From: Candidatus Gastranaerophilales bacterium
Lineage (GTDB): Bacteria > Cyanobacteriota > Vampirovibrionia > Gastranaerophilales > Gastranaerophilaceae
NCBI GenBank assembly: GCA_944322665.1
Contig: CALUPM010000007.1
Location: 1 to 43,585, forward strand
DNA length: 43,585 nucleotides
Direction: 5' to 3'
The notes beneath the pieces are model-generated. The model saw only the letters and a list, made by a program, of their open reading frames with translations. It was not told where the DNA came from and searched no databases. Each line of letters starts with the position of its first letter. Position 1 is the first letter of the stretch. Of this stretch, positions 1-43,585 are shown piece after piece. Position numbers and translations under genes: made by a program.

Positions 1-635
1 AGTATTTTTTTTAGAAACAAACCCTTCAACTTTTCAACCATTCACCCTTTCAACCCCCTTCACTCTTCACCCTTCACCCTTCACTCTGATAAGAACTTAT
101 CGCCTTATCGCCTTGCAGTCCTATCGCCTTCCAAAACGAAACCTCCTAGCGCCCTAGTGCCTTAAAGCCTTAGTATCTTTTTCCAGAAACAAACCATTCA
201 TCCGTTCAACTTTTCAACCTTTCAACTCTCCTCACACTTCACACTTCACTCTTCAGACCCCTCACCCGAATTTGTAAGTTCGCATTTGCTCACTAACAAA
301 TTCTACCCTCTCCCACAAGGGGAGAGGGGATTATTTTACGTAAAGGACTTATCGTCTTAACGTCCTAACGTCTTTTCGTCTTTTTCAGAAACAAACCATT
401 CAACTTTTCAACTTCCCTCACCCTTCACCCTTCACTTTGATAAGAACTTATCGTCTTATCGCCTTTATCAACTTCCCTCACTCCTCACCCTTCACCCTTC
501 ACTTTGATAAGAACTTATCGCCTTATCGCCTTTATCAACTTCCCTCACTCCTCACCCTTCACCCTTCACTTTGATAAGAACTTATCGCCTTTTATCTTTT
601 CCGACTTCATGGTATTTTATAGAAAAGGAGAAAAT
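1..635. repeat. Pyrimidine-rich non-coding repeat field
   Basis: This stretch carries no credible gene. It is built from C/T-rich phrases such as ttcacccttcac, ttcaacttttcaac and cttatcgccttatcgcc. Four copies of a unit contain the inverted repeat GATAAG-AA-CTTATC, at 88-101, 439-452, 506-519 and 573-586; the last three are exactly 67 bases apart. The flanking sequence is nearly identical between the 471-532 and 538-595 units. An open frame does run through the last units into the downstream kinase gene, but its residues are repeat-encoded and a ribosome binding site marks the kinase start at 636. The unit is not a CRISPR, because the spacers are themselves degenerate copies. Confidence 0.8.
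306..328. repeat. REP-type perfect hairpin
   Basis: Perfect 9-base inverted repeat ccctctccc / gggagaggg with a 5-base loop (acaag). It is preceded by a weaker inverted repeat (aatttgtaag at 269-278 against ctaacaaatt at 293-302, one mismatch). The phrase resembles a short palindrome often seen scattered between bacterial genes. There is no T-tract, so a terminator role is not supported. Confidence 0.6.
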
Positions 636-8347: not shown

Positions 8348-8500
8348 TCAAGGTTTTTGTTTGCCAAAATTTTCAGGATGGGCTGAATTTGACAAAATTA
8401 TTTCGTAATACTCGTTTTTGTCAATATTTACGCCCATTGTGCGCGTGTCACAGTATTTTTTCTTTTTCTTATTTAATAATTTTTTGTAATCGCCTGACAT
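8348..8500 (-). CDS. Possible small basic protein of 50 residues
   Basis: An ATG at 8500 opens a 50-residue frame (MSGDYKKLLNKKKKKY ... ending GKQKP). It is Lys-rich in the first third and then reads CDTRTMGVNIDKNEYYEIIL, which looks like real coding sequence. No Shine-Dalgarno is present, but a perfect TATAAT (8507-8512) lies six bases before the ATG, the same arrangement as other probable leaderless genes here. It is divergent from rplS and shares the gap with tRNA-Leu. No family is recognised, and chance cannot be excluded. Confidence 0.45.
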   Translation of the reverse strand: MSGDYKKLLNKKKKKYCDTRTMGVNIDKNEYYEIILSNSAHPENFGKQKP

Positions 8501-8534
8501 AGCTTTATTATATTACAAAATCTTAAAATGCCGC

Positions 8535-15923: not shown

Positions 15924-16652
15924 TTAATAGTCTTTTCCGACAGCAGCCCTGTGCGCAATATACTCTAACTTGTCATCCAGCGGTGCAAGTTCAATCTCAT
16001 CTTCATACCTTTTTTCAAGAGCAAGAGTAATCAGAAAATCCGCAAAATGCGGGTTCTTCGGAAGCAATGACCCGTGAAGATACGTTCCGAAAACATTCAA
16101 AAATTTTGCGCCTTCTGTATTATCATACCCGTTATTGCCGTTGCCGGTTGTCAAAATTGCAAGCGGTTTTGTGTCACCCTTGATATATGTTAATCCTGAA
16201 TGGTTTTCAAACCCGACAAGAGTTGAAGGTCTTAAAAATCCGGTGCGTGCCGTAACATTGCCGATGAACCTTTTTTCTCCGGCAACAGTATATGCATCAA
16301 GCAGACTTACACCGTTGAGCCTTTCTCCTTCAAAAGGCTGGTAATAATGTCCTAAAAGCTGATACCCGCCGCAGATACCGAGAAACACAGCCCCTTTATC
16401 TCTTTGTTCCGTCAGAAAATCTTTTTGTTTATACAGAGATTTTGAAACTTCAACCTGCTCTCTGTCCTGCCCGCCTCCGATAAAATAAAAATCACACTCC
16501 GGAATTCTATCTTCTCCGTTGATTTCGACATACTCAAAATCAATTCCGCGCCACCGGCAACGTTTGCGAAGCGTAATGATATTTCCCATATCTCCGTATA
16601 AATTCAACTGTTTCGGGTAAAGATGCCCGACTGATATTTTTATCTTCTCCAT
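15924..16652 (-). CDS. gatD: GatD-like glutamine amidotransferase (lipid II isoglutaminyl synthase subunit)
   Basis: 242 residues, the size of GatD. It is a triad-type amidotransferase: the nucleophile Cys lies in FLGICGGYQLLG and the His in FGTYLHG. Its opening (KISVGHLYPKQLNLYGDMGN) and FIGGGQDREQ match GatD rather than the longer CobQ/CobB. GatD supplies ammonia to MurT, which amidates the D-Glu of lipid II. No murT is in the window, although the two are usually adjacent. The start has TGA-TATAAT (minus strand, -10 at 16660-16665) seven bases upstream and no usable ribosome binding site, predicting a leaderless message. Confidence 0.85.
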   Translation of the reverse strand: MEKIKISVGHLYPKQLNLYGDMGNIITLRKRCRWRGIDFEYVEINGEDRIPECDFYFIGGGQDREQVEVSKSLYKQKDFLTEQRDKGAVFLGICGGYQLLGHYYQPFEGERLNGVSLLDAYTVAGEKRFIGNVTARTGFLRPSTLVGFENHSGLTYIKGDTKPLAILTTGNGNNGYDNTEGAKFLNVFGTYLHGSLLPKNPHFADFLITLALEKRYEDEIELAPLDDKLEYIAHRAAVGKDY

Positions 16653-16659
16653 ATCCTTG

Positions 16660-16697
16660 ATTATATCACAAATCTCCTTCGTGTTATAATTTGTAAT
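16660..16697. promoter_or_regulatory. Divergent leaderless promoters of gatD and tatD
   Basis: Two extended -10 boxes face away from each other: minus-strand TGA-TATAAT (16660-16665) for gatD and plus-strand TGT-TATAAT (16685-16690) for tatD. Each is exactly seven bases from its ATG, so transcription should begin at or next to the start codon. Confidence 0.65.
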
Positions 16698-17468
16698 ATG
16701 AATGAAACATATTTAATAGACACACATTCTCATATCTATATGATTGAAAAAATTTCCGTGGATGAAGTTTTACAAAATGCGATTTCTAACGGAGTAAAAA
16801 AGATTATCGTACCATCTTCCTGCGCCAGTGACATTGATGACGTTTTTGAACTTGCACAAAAATACGAAAATGTATATTGCTATTTAGGAATTCACCCCGA
16901 AGAAGCAAAGGACTGGAGCGGAGAGAATAAAGAAAAAATCAAAACACTTGCCGCTTCGCCGAAAGTTGTCGGAATAGGGGAGATCGGGCTTGATTATTAC
17001 TGGGACAAAAGTAATATTGATTTACAAAAAGAAATTTTTATAAAACAAATTGAGCTTGCAAATGAATTAAATCTGCCATTGAATATTCATGACAGAGATG
17101 CCCACAAAGACACCTTTGATATTTTAAAAGAACACAACAAAAATTCGGCGGTAATAATGCACTGTTTTTCAGGAAGTCCGGAGTTTGCGCTGGAATGCAT
17201 TAAAGAAGGCTGGTACATTGCACTCGGCGGAGTTGTAACATTTAAAAATGCAAAAAAAATGAAAGATGTCGCAAAAATTGTTCCGCTAGAAAAGCTTCTT
17301 CTTGAAACAGATGCGCCTTATCTTACACCCGTTCCTCACAGAGGAGAAGAAAACCAACCTGCTTACGTAAAATTCACGGCAGAAGAAATCGCCAAATTAA
17401 AAGGAATTTCTTTTGAAGAAACGGCACAAACAACAAGCGCTAACGCTGAAAAAATTCTTTCTATCTGA
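16698..17468 (+). CDS. tatD: TatD-family metal-dependent DNase/hydrolase
   Basis: 256 residues, standard length. Metal ligands are visible in order: DTHSHIY (HxH), GEIGLDYYW (Glu), NIHDRDA (His), MHCFSG (His) and LLLETDAPYL (Asp). The family comprises cytoplasmic TIM-barrel 3'-5' exonucleases or deacylases implicated in DNA repair and clearance. There is no Shine-Dalgarno; the -10 box is seven bases before the ATG. The 3' end overlaps the convergent XRE gene by eight bases. Confidence 0.94.
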   Translation: MNETYLIDTHSHIYMIEKISVDEVLQNAISNGVKKIIVPSSCASDIDDVFELAQKYENVYCYLGIHPEEAKDWSGENKEKIKTLAASPKVVGIGEIGLDYYWDKSNIDLQKEIFIKQIELANELNLPLNIHDRDAHKDTFDILKEHNKNSAVIMHCFSGSPEFALECIKEGWYIALGGVVTFKNAKKMKDVAKIVPLEKLLLETDAPYLTPVPHRGEENQPAYVKFTAEEIAKLKGISFEETAQTTSANAEKILSI

Positions 17469-26234: not shown

Positions 26235-26263
26235 TTGCAAAATAGAAATTTATGTGCTAGCTT
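26235..26263 (+). promoter_or_regulatory. Promoter placing transcription start at the acyltransferase ATG
   Basis: TTGCAA (26235-26240), 17-base spacer ending in TGC, then TAGCTT (26258-26263). Only seven bases separate the -10 from the ATG at 26271, and no ribosome binding site is present. Confidence 0.5.
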
Positions 26264-26270
26264 AATCTGT

Positions 26271-26981
26271 ATGGTCAGACTGATTAATGCGGACAACGTA
26301 ATTTATCTGAAAAAACTTTTAAACGGGATATTAAAGACACAGGAGATTTTTACAATAATTAAAAGTGTTGACCCGCCGGACGTTGGCCCTTGTATTTATG
26401 CCATGTGGCACGGAAACCAGTTTTGTGTCTACGGGCTTCCGAACAGAACCAGCGGCAAGGTTAATGTTCTTGTCAGCACATCAATGGACGGAGATATAAT
26501 TTCTTACTGCGTCGGGAACCTGGGGCTTAAGACAATCAGGGGTTCTACAGCAAGAAGAGGTGCTGTCGGCGGTACAATGCAGATTCTTGACGCCTTGAAA
26601 AACGGGGAATCCGCGGCAATTATGGTTGACGGCCCGAAAGGCCCCGCCAAAAAAGTTAAAGGCGGAATTTTCAAAATCGCACACATGGCTCAAGTTCCGA
26701 TTGTGCCTGTCCACTGGTATTCCCCTCAGTTTAATTTTGTTAAACTTCCCAGCTGGGACAGCCTTACTTCCCCGATTTTATACACAAGGCTTATTAACAT
26801 TTACGGAACGCCGATATACATTCAAGAAGATCTTGATTCTGAAACAGAAAAAAAATATCAGGAAAAATTAAAAGAATCACTGATAAACTTAGAAGCAAAA
26901 GCTCCTCAAATATACAAGGAGGTAAAACACAAAATTCCATGGAAACTAAATCTGGACTTAAATTATCCGCGCTACAACTGA
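26271..26981 (+). CDS. DUF374-type lysophospholipid acyltransferase-like protein
   Basis: 236 residues. The motif order fits the DUF374 branch of glycerolipid/lipid A acyltransferases: AMWHGNQF with the probable catalytic His47, STSMDGD, IRGSTARRGAVG, MVDGPKGPAKKVKGGIF and a PIVPVHW strand. It probably transfers an acyl chain during envelope lipid or lipid A-type synthesis at the inner membrane; the acceptor is not known. The ATG at 26271 is chosen because the earlier TTG in frame is the -35 box. It overlaps the next gene by 43 bases. Confidence 0.8.
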   Translation: MVRLINADNVIYLKKLLNGILKTQEIFTIIKSVDPPDVGPCIYAMWHGNQFCVYGLPNRTSGKVNVLVSTSMDGDIISYCVGNLGLKTIRGSTARRGAVGGTMQILDALKNGESAAIMVDGPKGPAKKVKGGIFKIAHMAQVPIVPVHWYSPQFNFVKLPSWDSLTSPILYTRLINIYGTPIYIQEDLDSETEKKYQEKLKESLINLEAKAPQIYKEVKHKIPWKLNLDLNYPRYN

Positions 26982-38072: not shown

Positions 38073-39203
38073 TTAACAATTAGCCACCTTACCTAATACA
38101 GTCCTGCATCTTGCGCCTGTACAGTCAGGAAGGTTGTTTGGAATATTATAATAAGCACAGTAGCCGAGAAGTGCAAAAGCCATGACTTCTTTAAAATTGT
38201 TGGAAATGCCATAATTTTCATGTGTTTTTAAATCAATGTGCTTCGGCAGATAATGGCGGAGGTATTTCATCAAAGTCTGGTTGTAAGCCCCGCCGCCGCC
38301 GATTACGACTTCGTTGATATCAACAGACGGATAAACAAACCTTTCATAAGCTTGAATAATTGACTTTGCGGTAAGAGCAGTCAGCGTTGCAATAACATCT
38401 TTCGGTTCATGCGGAGCAAAACGGAGTGCGTTTTCGGTATATTCCTTTGAAAAATATTCTCTTCCAGTCGTTTTGGGCGGATTTCTAAAGTAATATTCAT
38501 CCTGCAGAAGGCACTCCAGCCAGCTTTCTGAAATTGTTCCGGAGTTTGCAACATCACCGTTTTCATCATAGGGCATGCCGAAAAACTTTTGCATACAATA
38601 ATCTATCATCATATTTCCGGGGCCTGTGTCAAATCCGAAGGTTGCATTTTCTTTTGATACGACCGTAACATTTGAAATTCCGCCGATATTCTGGATACAG
38701 AAATTCTTCTTTAACGGCTTGAACCATTTTTCATCAGCAAAACACACAAGCGGGGCGCCTTCTCCTCCGCATGCAATATCAGCTTCTCTGAAATTTGAAA
38801 TTGTCATACAGCCTGTTTCTTTCGCAATAACAGCACTTTCGCCGATTTGCAATGTACTTTTCAAAGAAATTCCGTCTATTTTTTCATCAAACGGAAAATG
38901 ATAAATTGTCTGACCGTGACTTGAAATAAAATCAGGTTTTCCATGCTCCGAGATGATAATATTACATGCTTCCGCAAAACATTTTCCGACGGCGAAATTC
39001 ATCTGGCATAAATCTTTTACTGTCGCATTACCGCTGAAAAGATTAAACAATTTCGCTCTGATGTGTTCCGGATATTTGTAATTTATTCCGTGAATAAGTT
39101 TACAGCTTAAATCCGGCGAAACAATACAAAGTCCGGCATCTATGCTGTCACAGGATGTGCCGGACATTAAAGCTATTATCTTTTTACTTTCCAATTCCTG
39201 CAT
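38073..39203 (-). CDS. anmK: Anhydro-N-acetylmuramic acid kinase
   Basis: 376 residues from 39203; MQELESKKIIALMSGTSCDS matches the family start, and an ATG ten codons earlier lies in sequence that also holds the likely promoter. Motifs: MSGTSCDSID near the N-terminus, SHGQTIYH, QNIGGISN, FDTGPGNMMID (catalytic Asp) and VVIGGGGAYN. It phosphorylates anhydro-MurNAc from cell-wall turnover to MurNAc-6-phosphate. No Shine-Dalgarno; TAGAAT (39209-39214, minus) is five bases upstream. Confidence 0.95.
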   Translation of the reverse strand: MQELESKKIIALMSGTSCDSIDAGLCIVSPDLSCKLIHGINYKYPEHIRAKLFNLFSGNATVKDLCQMNFAVGKCFAEACNIIISEHGKPDFISSHGQTIYHFPFDEKIDGISLKSTLQIGESAVIAKETGCMTISNFREADIACGGEGAPLVCFADEKWFKPLKKNFCIQNIGGISNVTVVSKENATFGFDTGPGNMMIDYCMQKFFGMPYDENGDVANSGTISESWLECLLQDEYYFRNPPKTTGREYFSKEYTENALRFAPHEPKDVIATLTALTAKSIIQAYERFVYPSVDINEVVIGGGGAYNQTLMKYLRHYLPKHIDLKTHENYGISNNFKEVMAFALLGYCAYYNIPNNLPDCTGARCRTVLGKVANC

Positions 39204-39233
39204 TATAAATTCTATTTTATTAAAACATAACAT

Positions 39234-41751: not shown

Positions 41752-41780
41752 TTTTCATTAAAATCCGGATGTATTATTCT
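41752..41780 (+). promoter_or_regulatory. dnaE promoter, transcription start at the ATG
   Basis: TTTTCA (41752-41757), 17-base spacer, TATTCT (41775-41780), then six bases to the ATG at 41787. No ribosome binding site is present. Confidence 0.5.
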
Positions 41781-41786
41781 TAAATC

Positions 41787-43585
41787 ATGAGCACACAACA
41801 AGCATACGTACCGCTGCATTTGCACAGTGAATATTCTCTACTGGACGGGGCAATAAGAATAAAAGACCTGATAGATTTTGCAAAAGAAGCAGGCATGCCG
41901 GCAGTTGCCCTGACCGATCACGGCGTAATGTACGGGGATATGGAACTTTATACAACAGCCAAGGAAAACGGTATAAAACCAATTTTAGGCTGCGAATTTT
42001 ACGTACACGACGGAGATATAGAAGAAAAGAATAAACTTCACAACCCGTGTTACCACCTTGTGTTACTTGCAAAAAACAAAGCCGGCTATCAAAACCTTAT
42101 TAAGCTCACCTCCACTGCCTGGTGCAAAGGCCGCTATGTACATCCGCGTATAAACTTTGAATTGCTTCAGGAACATTCCGAAGGTTTAATATGTCTTTCG
42201 GCATGCTTAGGCGGAGAAGTTCTCCAGATGCTCTTAAAAGGGGACTATGATGCGGCAAAAGCGTGTGCCAAAAAATACAAAGATTTGTTTGGAGAAGATT
42301 ATTACATTGAACTTCAAGACCATGGCATTGACGAGCAAAAACGTACAAATCCGGAACTAATCAGGCTGGCAAAAGAACTTGATATAAAAATGGTCATAAC
42401 AAATGACTCTCACTATTTGAGAAAAGAAGACGCCGACATGCATGATACCCTTCTTTGCATGCAGACAAACAGCGACAAAGATGACCCGAACAGATTTCAC
42501 TTTCCGGGCAACGAATTCTATGTCAAAACGGCAGAACAACTCAGAGATGCGTTCAAATGGATGGATTCTGAAACTTTTAATCAGTGCATAAAAAATACAG
42601 TTGATATTGCAGACAAATGCCATCTGATACTTGAACTCGGAAAAAGTCCGCTTCCTGATTACAAAGTTCCGCAGGGATACACAATTGAATCTTATCTTGA
42701 ACATCTTGTTTATGACGGCTTGAAAAAACGTTACGGAGAAATTACAAAAGACTTAAAAGAACGTACGGATTACGAACTTGGCGTAATCAATCAAATGGGA
42801 TTTGCCGCATACTTTTTAATTACATGGGATTTCATACATTATGCAAAGACCCATGGAATTCCGGTCGGCCCCGGAAGAGGTTCGGCAGCCGGCTCTGTTG
42901 TTGCGTATTCTCTTGAAATCACAGACCTTGACCCGATTAAACATAAACTGTTGTTTGAAAGATTTTTAAATCCGGAACGTTTCACCATGCCTGATATTGA
43001 TATTGACTTCTGCATTGAACGCAGAGGCGAGGTAATTGATTATGTAACGAAAAAATACGGCGAAGATAAAGTCTGCCAGATTATCACATTTGGTACTTAT
43101 GCTGCAAAAGCCGCACTAAAAGGGATTTGCAGAATTTTAAAAGTTCCGTTTTCGGAAAGCAACAAGCTTGCAGGCCTAATTGAGCCGGCAATAGAAATTG
43201 CACAGGCAACAAACCCGAAAGCAAAAACTTTAAAAGATGCAATGCAATATGACGGTTCAGAACTGAAAACTCTTTACGACAAAGACGAACAGCTTCCCTC
43301 AGGCGACCCGATGGATGGAAAAACAGTCGGGGTAAAAAAGATTGTAGATCTTGCAATAGGTATTGAGGGGATTAAGAACAACACCGGCACGCACGCAGCA
43401 GGCGTAATCATAGCACCGGAACCTCTTGATCACATACTTCCTGTTCAGCCTTCAAAAGACGGAATAGTTCAAACAGGTTACCCGCCGCATGACGTTACGG
43501 AAGTCTTAAGCCTTTTAAAAATGGACTTTCTGGGGCTTCGAAACCTCACAACCATATACAAAACCGTTGATTTAATTAAAGAACA
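41787..43585 (+). CDS. dnaE: DNA polymerase III alpha subunit DnaE (partial, 3' end beyond window)
   Basis: The first 599 codons are visible and the frame is open to the end. The N-terminal PHP domain has apparently intact metal ligands (HLHSEYSLLDG, LTDHGVMYG, GCEFYV, YHLVLL, QDHG, NDSHY). The palm has VGPGRGSAAGS, the catalytic PDIDIDF and the third acid in KMDFLGLRN. It replicates the chromosome. Finger, beta-binding and C-terminal parts lie outside the window. A leaderless start is predicted. Confidence 0.97.
   Translation, partial: MSTQQAYVPLHLHSEYSLLDGAIRIKDLIDFAKEAGMPAVALTDHGVMYGDMELYTTAKENGIKPILGCEFYVHDGDIEEKNKLHNPCYHLVLLAKNKAGYQNLIKLTSTAWCKGRYVHPRINFELLQEHSEGLICLSACLGGEVLQMLLKGDYDAAKACAKKYKDLFGEDYYIELQDHGIDEQKRTNPELIRLAKELDIKMVITNDSHYLRKEDADMHDTLLCMQTNSDKDDPNRFHFPGNEFYVKTAEQLRDAFKWMDSETFNQCIKNTVDIADKCHLILELGKSPLPDYKVPQGYTIESYLEHLVYDGLKKRYGEITKDLKERTDYELGVINQMGFAAYFLITWDFIHYAKTHGIPVGPGRGSAAGSVVAYSLEITDLDPIKHKLLFERFLNPERFTMPDIDIDFCIERRGEVIDYVTKKYGEDKVCQIITFGTYAAKAALKGICRILKVPFSESNKLAGLIEPAIEIAQATNPKAKTLKDAMQYDGSELKTLYDKDEQLPSGDPMDGKTVGVKKIVDLAIGIEGIKNNTGTHAAGVIIAPEPLDHILPVQPSKDGIVQTGYPPHDVTEVLSLLKMDFLGLRNLTTIYKTVDLIKE

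Follow-up and report, generated by a model that had tools for sequence, protein, structure and literature searches.

Predicted Leaderless Transcription as a Recurring Start Mode in Gastranaerophilales, With the Divergent gatD/tatD Pair as the Leading Case

Introduction

TA-led (leaderless) genes have been described in Actinobacteria and Deinococcus-Thermus (Zheng et al., 2011; PMC3160421), in which a TANNNT box lies about 12 nt upstream of the start, the genes concerned stand apart from those with Shine-Dalgarno (SD) sites while existing beside an SD mode, and significance was shown against shuffled sequence. The Gastranaerophilales genes reported here are alike in these respects, and the sequence-only reading that first drew attention to them was right to cite a box at such a distance as a leaderless signature in Actinobacteria and Deinococcus. 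The two systems differ in the share of genes, which is about 20–40% of all genes for TA-led genes (PMC3160421) vs. about 10% of operon-first genes in the Gastranaerophilales genome. Unlike the systems of that survey, the latter has an AT-rich genome, a near-complete TATAAT preceded by TGN, and, in the present counts, AUG only. Among the genomes to which that survey assigns leaderless genes there are no Cyanobacteria, and a mention of Melainabacteria was not found in it.

In photosynthetic members of the same phylum, 19 leaderless mRNAs were found in Synechococcus UTEX 2973 (PMC6091082) and 51 in Synechocystis 6803, the latter as cited in PMC9938897, and cvkR/cas12k of Anabaena is a divergent leaderless pair with an 82-nt spacer (PMC9938897), to which the predicted pair gatD/tatD is similar. 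The 5′ ends were measured in those organisms, whereas in Gastranaerophilales they are deduced from sequence; moreover, the cases number 19 and 51 in these two photosynthetic genomes, and 101 other genomes of the phylum, pooled in the present analysis, show no box-to-ATG excess, whereas the mode in Gastranaerophilales appears to be a lineage-wide minority mode. In the GeneMarkS-2 classification, as summarised in PMC9581028, the class with leaderless transcription makes up 21.6% of bacterial species and, like the present genome, mixes SD and leaderless genes in one genome. The same summary names Cyanobacteria as an example of the weak-signal class, and no statement that the Gastranaerophilales lineage was included was found in it.

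No report of leaderless genes in Melainabacteria or Gastranaerophilales was found in the open-access literature. The remark in the sequence-only reading that this layout is not known to have been described for the lineage therefore stands as far as open-access papers go, but the phylum as a whole already has leaderless mRNAs at low frequency. Because these are known in photosynthetic cyanobacteria, the mode is new for the Gastranaerophilales lineage only.

Materials and Methods

The window, a stretch of 43,585 nt, is contig 7 of a 1.91-Mb Gastranaerophilales (Melainabacteria) genome (102 contigs, 96.6% complete). Its attribution to a cyanobacterial sister lineage was correct, because, among named records, its tatD has the closest relatives in Candidatus Gastranaerophilales (Melainabacteria) MAGs. 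At the contig start (window 1–300) there are tracts of short C/T-rich repeats (CCTTCACCCTTCA, TCGCCTTGCAGTC), and similar tracts are also present upstream of genes at C14 4022 and C10 1509. A 16S rRNA gene, of interest for its anti-SD end, was searched for in the MAG and not found.

Genome-wide tests used about 840 kb of stretches (44% of the genome) together with whole-genome pattern searches. In this sample 683 genes were called with a codon-usage model blind to upstream signals, and 411 operon-first and 166 operon-internal genes were set apart; gene calls and starts are predictions from a simple, purpose-made model. Upstream regions were dinucleotide-shuffled, in 200 rounds for the TATAAT test. 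Ortholog counts include the window's own copy where it is among the loci, their chance level for a box at 6–7 nt is about 6.5%, and related species are non-independent trials. For the comparison of lineages, 194 genomes of the phylum were searched for TATAAT-N5-T-ATG and, as a reference, for the corresponding word with spacing 9, a control that was added because a reversed pattern is not composition-fair for promoter words.

Results

The features discussed are collected in Table 1. The sequence-only reading had claimed that gatD and tatD each carry TGN-TATAAT exactly 7 nt before ATG and lack a ribosome binding site, and both points agree with the sequence. The AAGGA of gatD sits 1 nt from the ATG, a distance too short for pairing as an SD, and the orthologs have not retained it. 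Since start codons are predictions, the real starts might lie downstream and the genes be ordinary leadered ones. However, a later start would cut the conserved core of both proteins (the metal-binding D-T-H-S-H of tatD starts at residue 8, and the conserved K-I-S-V-G-H of gatD spans residues 5–10) and orthologs agree on the start positions, which makes wrong starts scarcely credible.

Table 1. Positions of the predicted leaderless-type genes and their −10-like boxes in the window
Feature	Position	Strand	Basis
gatD (lipid II isoglutaminyl synthase amidotransferase subunit), predicted leaderless	15924..16652	−	GatD-type GATase_3; NCBIfam match scores under its curated cut-off
Extended −10 box of gatD, TGA-TATAAT, 7 nt before ATG 16652	16660..16668	−	sequence; posterior 0.94
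Extended −10 box of tatD, TGT-TATAAT, 7 nt before ATG 16698	16682..16690	+	sequence; posterior 0.96
tatD (TatD-family DNase), predicted leaderless	16698..17468	+	TIGR00010, PF01026
TAGCTT, weak −10-like box, 7 nt before ATG of DUF374 gene	26258..26263	+	24/30 orthologs with box at 6–7 nt
DUF374 protein gene, probably leaderless	26271..26981	+	ortholog boxes
TATAAT, 6 nt before ATG of 50-aa ORF	8507..8512	−	genus orthologs
50-aa ORF, genus-conserved, upstream of tRNA-Leu, probably leaderless	8348..8500	−	genus loci
TATTCT, 6 nt before dnaE ATG	41775..41780	+	family loci
dnaE (cut by contig end), possibly leaderless	41787..43583	+	family loci
TAGAAT, 5 nt before anmK ATG, off modal spacing	39209..39214	−	family loci
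anmK (anhydro-N-acetylmuramic acid kinase), possibly leaderless	38073..39203	−	family loci

The divergent genes gatD and tatD are separated by a spacer of 45 bp. Only one other divergent pair in the 840-kb sample has both genes of leaderless type, on contig 13 with a 44-bp spacer, and the two pairs are among the tightest divergent spacers of the sample. The contig 13 pair (G000:C13 4993-5038, L027), near-identical to gatD/tatD in size, consists of what we take by eye to be a proB-like gene and a pterin-binding-like protein. A genome-wide search for a preferred spacing between divergent −10 boxes found none. With 17-bp spacers, the −35 positions would overlap the opposite −10 box, and therefore it is probably the extended −10 on which these promoters depend; by the same geometry, tight divergent leaderless promoters probably cannot be occupied together.

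SD-like motifs lie upstream of 63% of the genes called in the 840-kb sample, in line with the original observation that most other genes have clear SD sites. The test named beforehand, a genome-wide count of TANNNT before starts compared with shuffles, peaked sharply at 6 nt, with a lesser rise at 7, and did not refute the proposal. Among the 411 operon-first genes, TANNNT occurred at 6 nt in 36 (shuffle mean 13.2, maximum 21) and TATAAT at 6–7 nt in 18 (shuffle mean 1.2, maximum 5 in 200), the excess of TATAAT over dinucleotide shuffles amounting to a z of about 15–17. Counting TATAAT-to-ATG distances over the 840 kb with no gene calls gave 42 at 6 nt, 29 at 7 nt and about 17 elsewhere. The word TGNTANNNT was found at 6 nt in 14 operon-first genes vs. 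about 1 at neighbouring distances, and in none of the SD genes. Spacing 8 also showed a small excess. TATAAT at 6–7 nt was likewise absent from SD-bearing genes and present in 1 of 166 operon-internal genes, and the small TANNNT excess of the latter at 6 nt (8 vs. 3.5) perhaps reflects internal promoters or missed operon heads. Neither GTG nor TTG starts gave a TATAAT distance peak in the 840-kb sample.

An unsupervised motif model recovered TGnTATAAT with a spacing of 6 in 29 genes, 7 in seven and 8 in three, and a second broad hump beyond 18 nt corresponds to leadered genes. By this model about 39 of the 411 operon-first genes (9.5%) of this one genome fall in the 5–8 nt class, which extrapolates to roughly 90 genes in the genome as a whole. 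The spacing of 7 holds for gatD and tatD, but the modal genome-wide spacing is 6. An SD site was present in 0 of 38 selected leaderless-type genes, and 9 of the 38 had TTG 16–17 nt upstream. Recognised by eye, these genes presumably include lepA, uvrB, mnmG, proB, der, mazG, holA, nth, nadD, ribE and transporters, which look like housekeeping genes and not one pathway.

In sigma70 promoters, the canonical +1 coincides with the A of ATG when the spacing from the −10 box is 6, and T-A is a typical initiator. The base at −1 was T in 32 of 36 genes of the 6-nt class vs. 179 of 375 other operon-first genes (Fisher p = 9e-7), and this T therefore independently supports a start at the ATG. The excess of TATAAT-N6-ATG, counted over all occurrences in the sample, was practically all T-ATG (29 vs. 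about 6), and the counts with A, C or G at −1 were flat or nearly so. Transcription of the 6-nt class very probably starts at the A of ATG. A start just upstream of the ATG, giving ultra-short leaders of 1–5 nt with leaderless-like translation, would suit the small excess at spacing 8 as well as gatD and tatD, which have purines 5–6 nt past the box besides the A of ATG and whose 7-nt spacing may leave room for a leader of 1–2 nt. Against such leaders, the modal spacing of 6 is the one that canonically separates −10 and +1, and genes with this spacing almost always have T at −1; we regard them as unlikely for the class, though they deserve some weight.

The start type is conserved gene by gene. 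A comparison was made with about 400 kb from a genome of the same genus. Of the leaderless-type genes with an ortholog there, 15 of 16 kept the type, several of them with strongly diverged flanks, and 56 of 62 SD genes stayed SD and one became leaderless-type. A TANNNT box at 6–7 nt was found in 23 of 28 gatD orthologs. For tatD it was present in 47 of 63 rows (the window copy and 46 of 62 orthologs of Gastranaerophilales type), the others being SD-led (7) or neither (9). In one tatD clade (L074, L077, L079, L083, L084, L086, L090), the gene adjoins an apparent upstream ORF and has no −10 box and no SD.

At five tatD loci (L058, L065, L075, L093, L121), TATAAT is kept, but 19–25 nt including an SD separate it from the ATG. 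Subtracting the box-to-ATG spacing from the gatD–tatD gap gives 45−7 for a leaderless example, 56−19 for L058, 57−19 for L075, 59−21 for L093 and 64−25 for L121; the distance from the gatD ATG to the tatD box is therefore 37–39 bp in leaderless and SD-led forms alike, where the gap is measurable. From this constancy it follows that 11–19 nt were probably added between an unchanged tatD promoter and the start codon. In the protein tree of tatD, L058, L065, L075 and L093 make one supported group nested in leaderless ones, and the SD label needs four changes in total. Nothing else indicates as strongly as the tatD series that the box is part of the promoter and that leaderless copies would manage without SD.

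The series also bears on whether TANNNT by the ATG is no promoter at all and instead helps ribosomes to bind, as the AT-rich non-SD signals of Bacteroidota do. Non-SD genes are indeed AT-rich upstream, and non-canonical ribosome binding sites are common in other phyla according to the summary in PMC9581028. However, the motif has all of a −10 box, extended by TGN and fixed in its spacing, it is concentrated at operon heads and nearly absent from operon-internal genes rather than occurring irrespective of position, TTG lies at the distance given above in part of the selected genes, and upon leader insertion the box stays with the promoter and not with the ATG. A ribosome-binding signal of this kind is very improbable, and the promoter reading is retained below.

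According to the sequence-only reading, the same layout recurs at 26271, 41787, 8500 and 39203. All four boxes are present with the sequence and spacing claimed, and the view that they reflect the same start mode is supported by orthologs, but 26271 and 39203 fail on sequence alone (posteriors of 0.01 and 0.00 in the unsupervised model, whose gene set does not include dnaE and the 50-aa ORF). Within the window this model gives a high posterior only to gatD and tatD (Table 1), which are the only two of the six sites standing on their own sequence. Because TANNNT at 6–7 nt is expected by chance in 26.6 of 411 operon-first genes (about 6.5%), the four weaker sites are not significant alone; TANNNT by itself is weak in an AT-rich genome, and TAGCTT or TAGAAT singly proves nothing without orthologs.

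It is from orthologs only that these four sites gain support. Boxes at 6–7 nt were found in 24 of 30 DUF374 orthologs (as TANNNT), 11 of 20 dnaE family loci with the own copy included, 12 of 19 anmK family loci with the own copy at 5, and 12 of 12 genus members with a match to the 50-aa ORF. The anmK site, at spacing 5, is the weakest, and single sites may still be chance. The start of dnaE lies 52 nt behind a same-strand gene with which it may be co-transcribed, and its operon-first status is uncertain. The 50-aa ORF, which has no Pfam or NCBIfam match, is a probable unannotated small leaderless gene. It is lysine-rich, 12 of the 14 genomes in the genus have it, and a tRNA-Leu lies downstream in 5 of 7 loci scanned. 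At four anmK loci (L195, L197, L199, L204), an inverted repeat accompanied by a T run (AAGCTTGC..GCAAGCTTTTTTATATAAT) immediately precedes the −10 box and seems to be an upstream terminator fused to a leaderless promoter.

In the window's family, the count of TATAAT-N5-T-ATG at spacing 6 exceeded that at spacing 9 in 85 of 85 sampled genomes (6291 vs. 1706, 3.7-fold), with 57 vs. 11 in the genome studied here. The second family of the class gave 71 vs. 50 in three genomes, and the other 101 genomes of the phylum, pooled, gave 823 vs. 728 (1.13-fold), which is no excess like that of the window's family. Summed counts were 209 vs. 197 for six AT-rich Firmicutes and 20 vs. 12 for three Bacteroidota. 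Family f5 (G004, G010, G018, G032, G038), which belongs to a different class of the phylum and has larger genomes, showed 83 vs. 16 in its five genomes, about 5-fold, perhaps an independent case. Matches to a loose pattern, picked out by the earlier reader from an AT-rich genome, could have arisen by chance at the rate given above, but the genome-wide peak, the family-wide enrichment and the conservation in orthologs leave such an account hardly any credibility, and as an explanation of the whole class chance is ruled out by them.

Discussion

In this study, we concluded that the candidate genes are very probably leaderless genes of sigma70 type. The class combines the −10 spacing, an excess over shuffles, the lack of a functional SD, operon-first position and a T/A initiator. 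The original suggestion that leaderless starts are a recurring mode finds support in the genome-wide peak, the enrichment in every sampled genome of the family and the gene-by-gene conservation, and the mode would serve about 10% of operon-first genes in this one genome, beside a majority SD mode.

Considering the above results, we propose a probable model for expression of these genes. The (extended) −10 box 6–7 nt before the ATG would be recognised by RNA polymerase carrying its housekeeping sigma factor, and transcription would begin at the A of the ATG or within 1–2 nt of it, with an initiator of T at −1 and A at +1. The resulting mRNA would have no 5′ UTR, and therefore the ribosome would read a 5′-terminal AUG without SD pairing; by analogy with known leaderless mRNAs, entry may be by the 70S ribosome with initiator tRNA.

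A broader interpretation is offered tentatively, and we would not put it at even likelihood: leaderless initiation may be a stable, ancestral, AUG-only mode for conserved housekeeping and repair genes (with dnaE in part of the family), in which a gene passes from leaderless to SD-led or back when a few bases are inserted between its ATG and a promoter that itself stays unchanged, and tight divergent pairs (43–45 bp) may compete for one polymerase. This competition would follow from the position of each promoter's −35 on the other's −10 box.

These results would extend leaderless genes to a large, uncultured, non-photosynthetic gut lineage beside the photosynthetic cyanobacteria. The start-codon annotation of many metagenome genomes would be affected, because leaderless starts may be missed or misplaced by gene finders built around SD sites, and the 50-aa ORF is an example of a possible oversight. 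Furthermore, the tatD series, in which one conserved promoter appears to serve a leaderless or an SD-led gene depending on the species, may offer a direct view of leader gain and loss.
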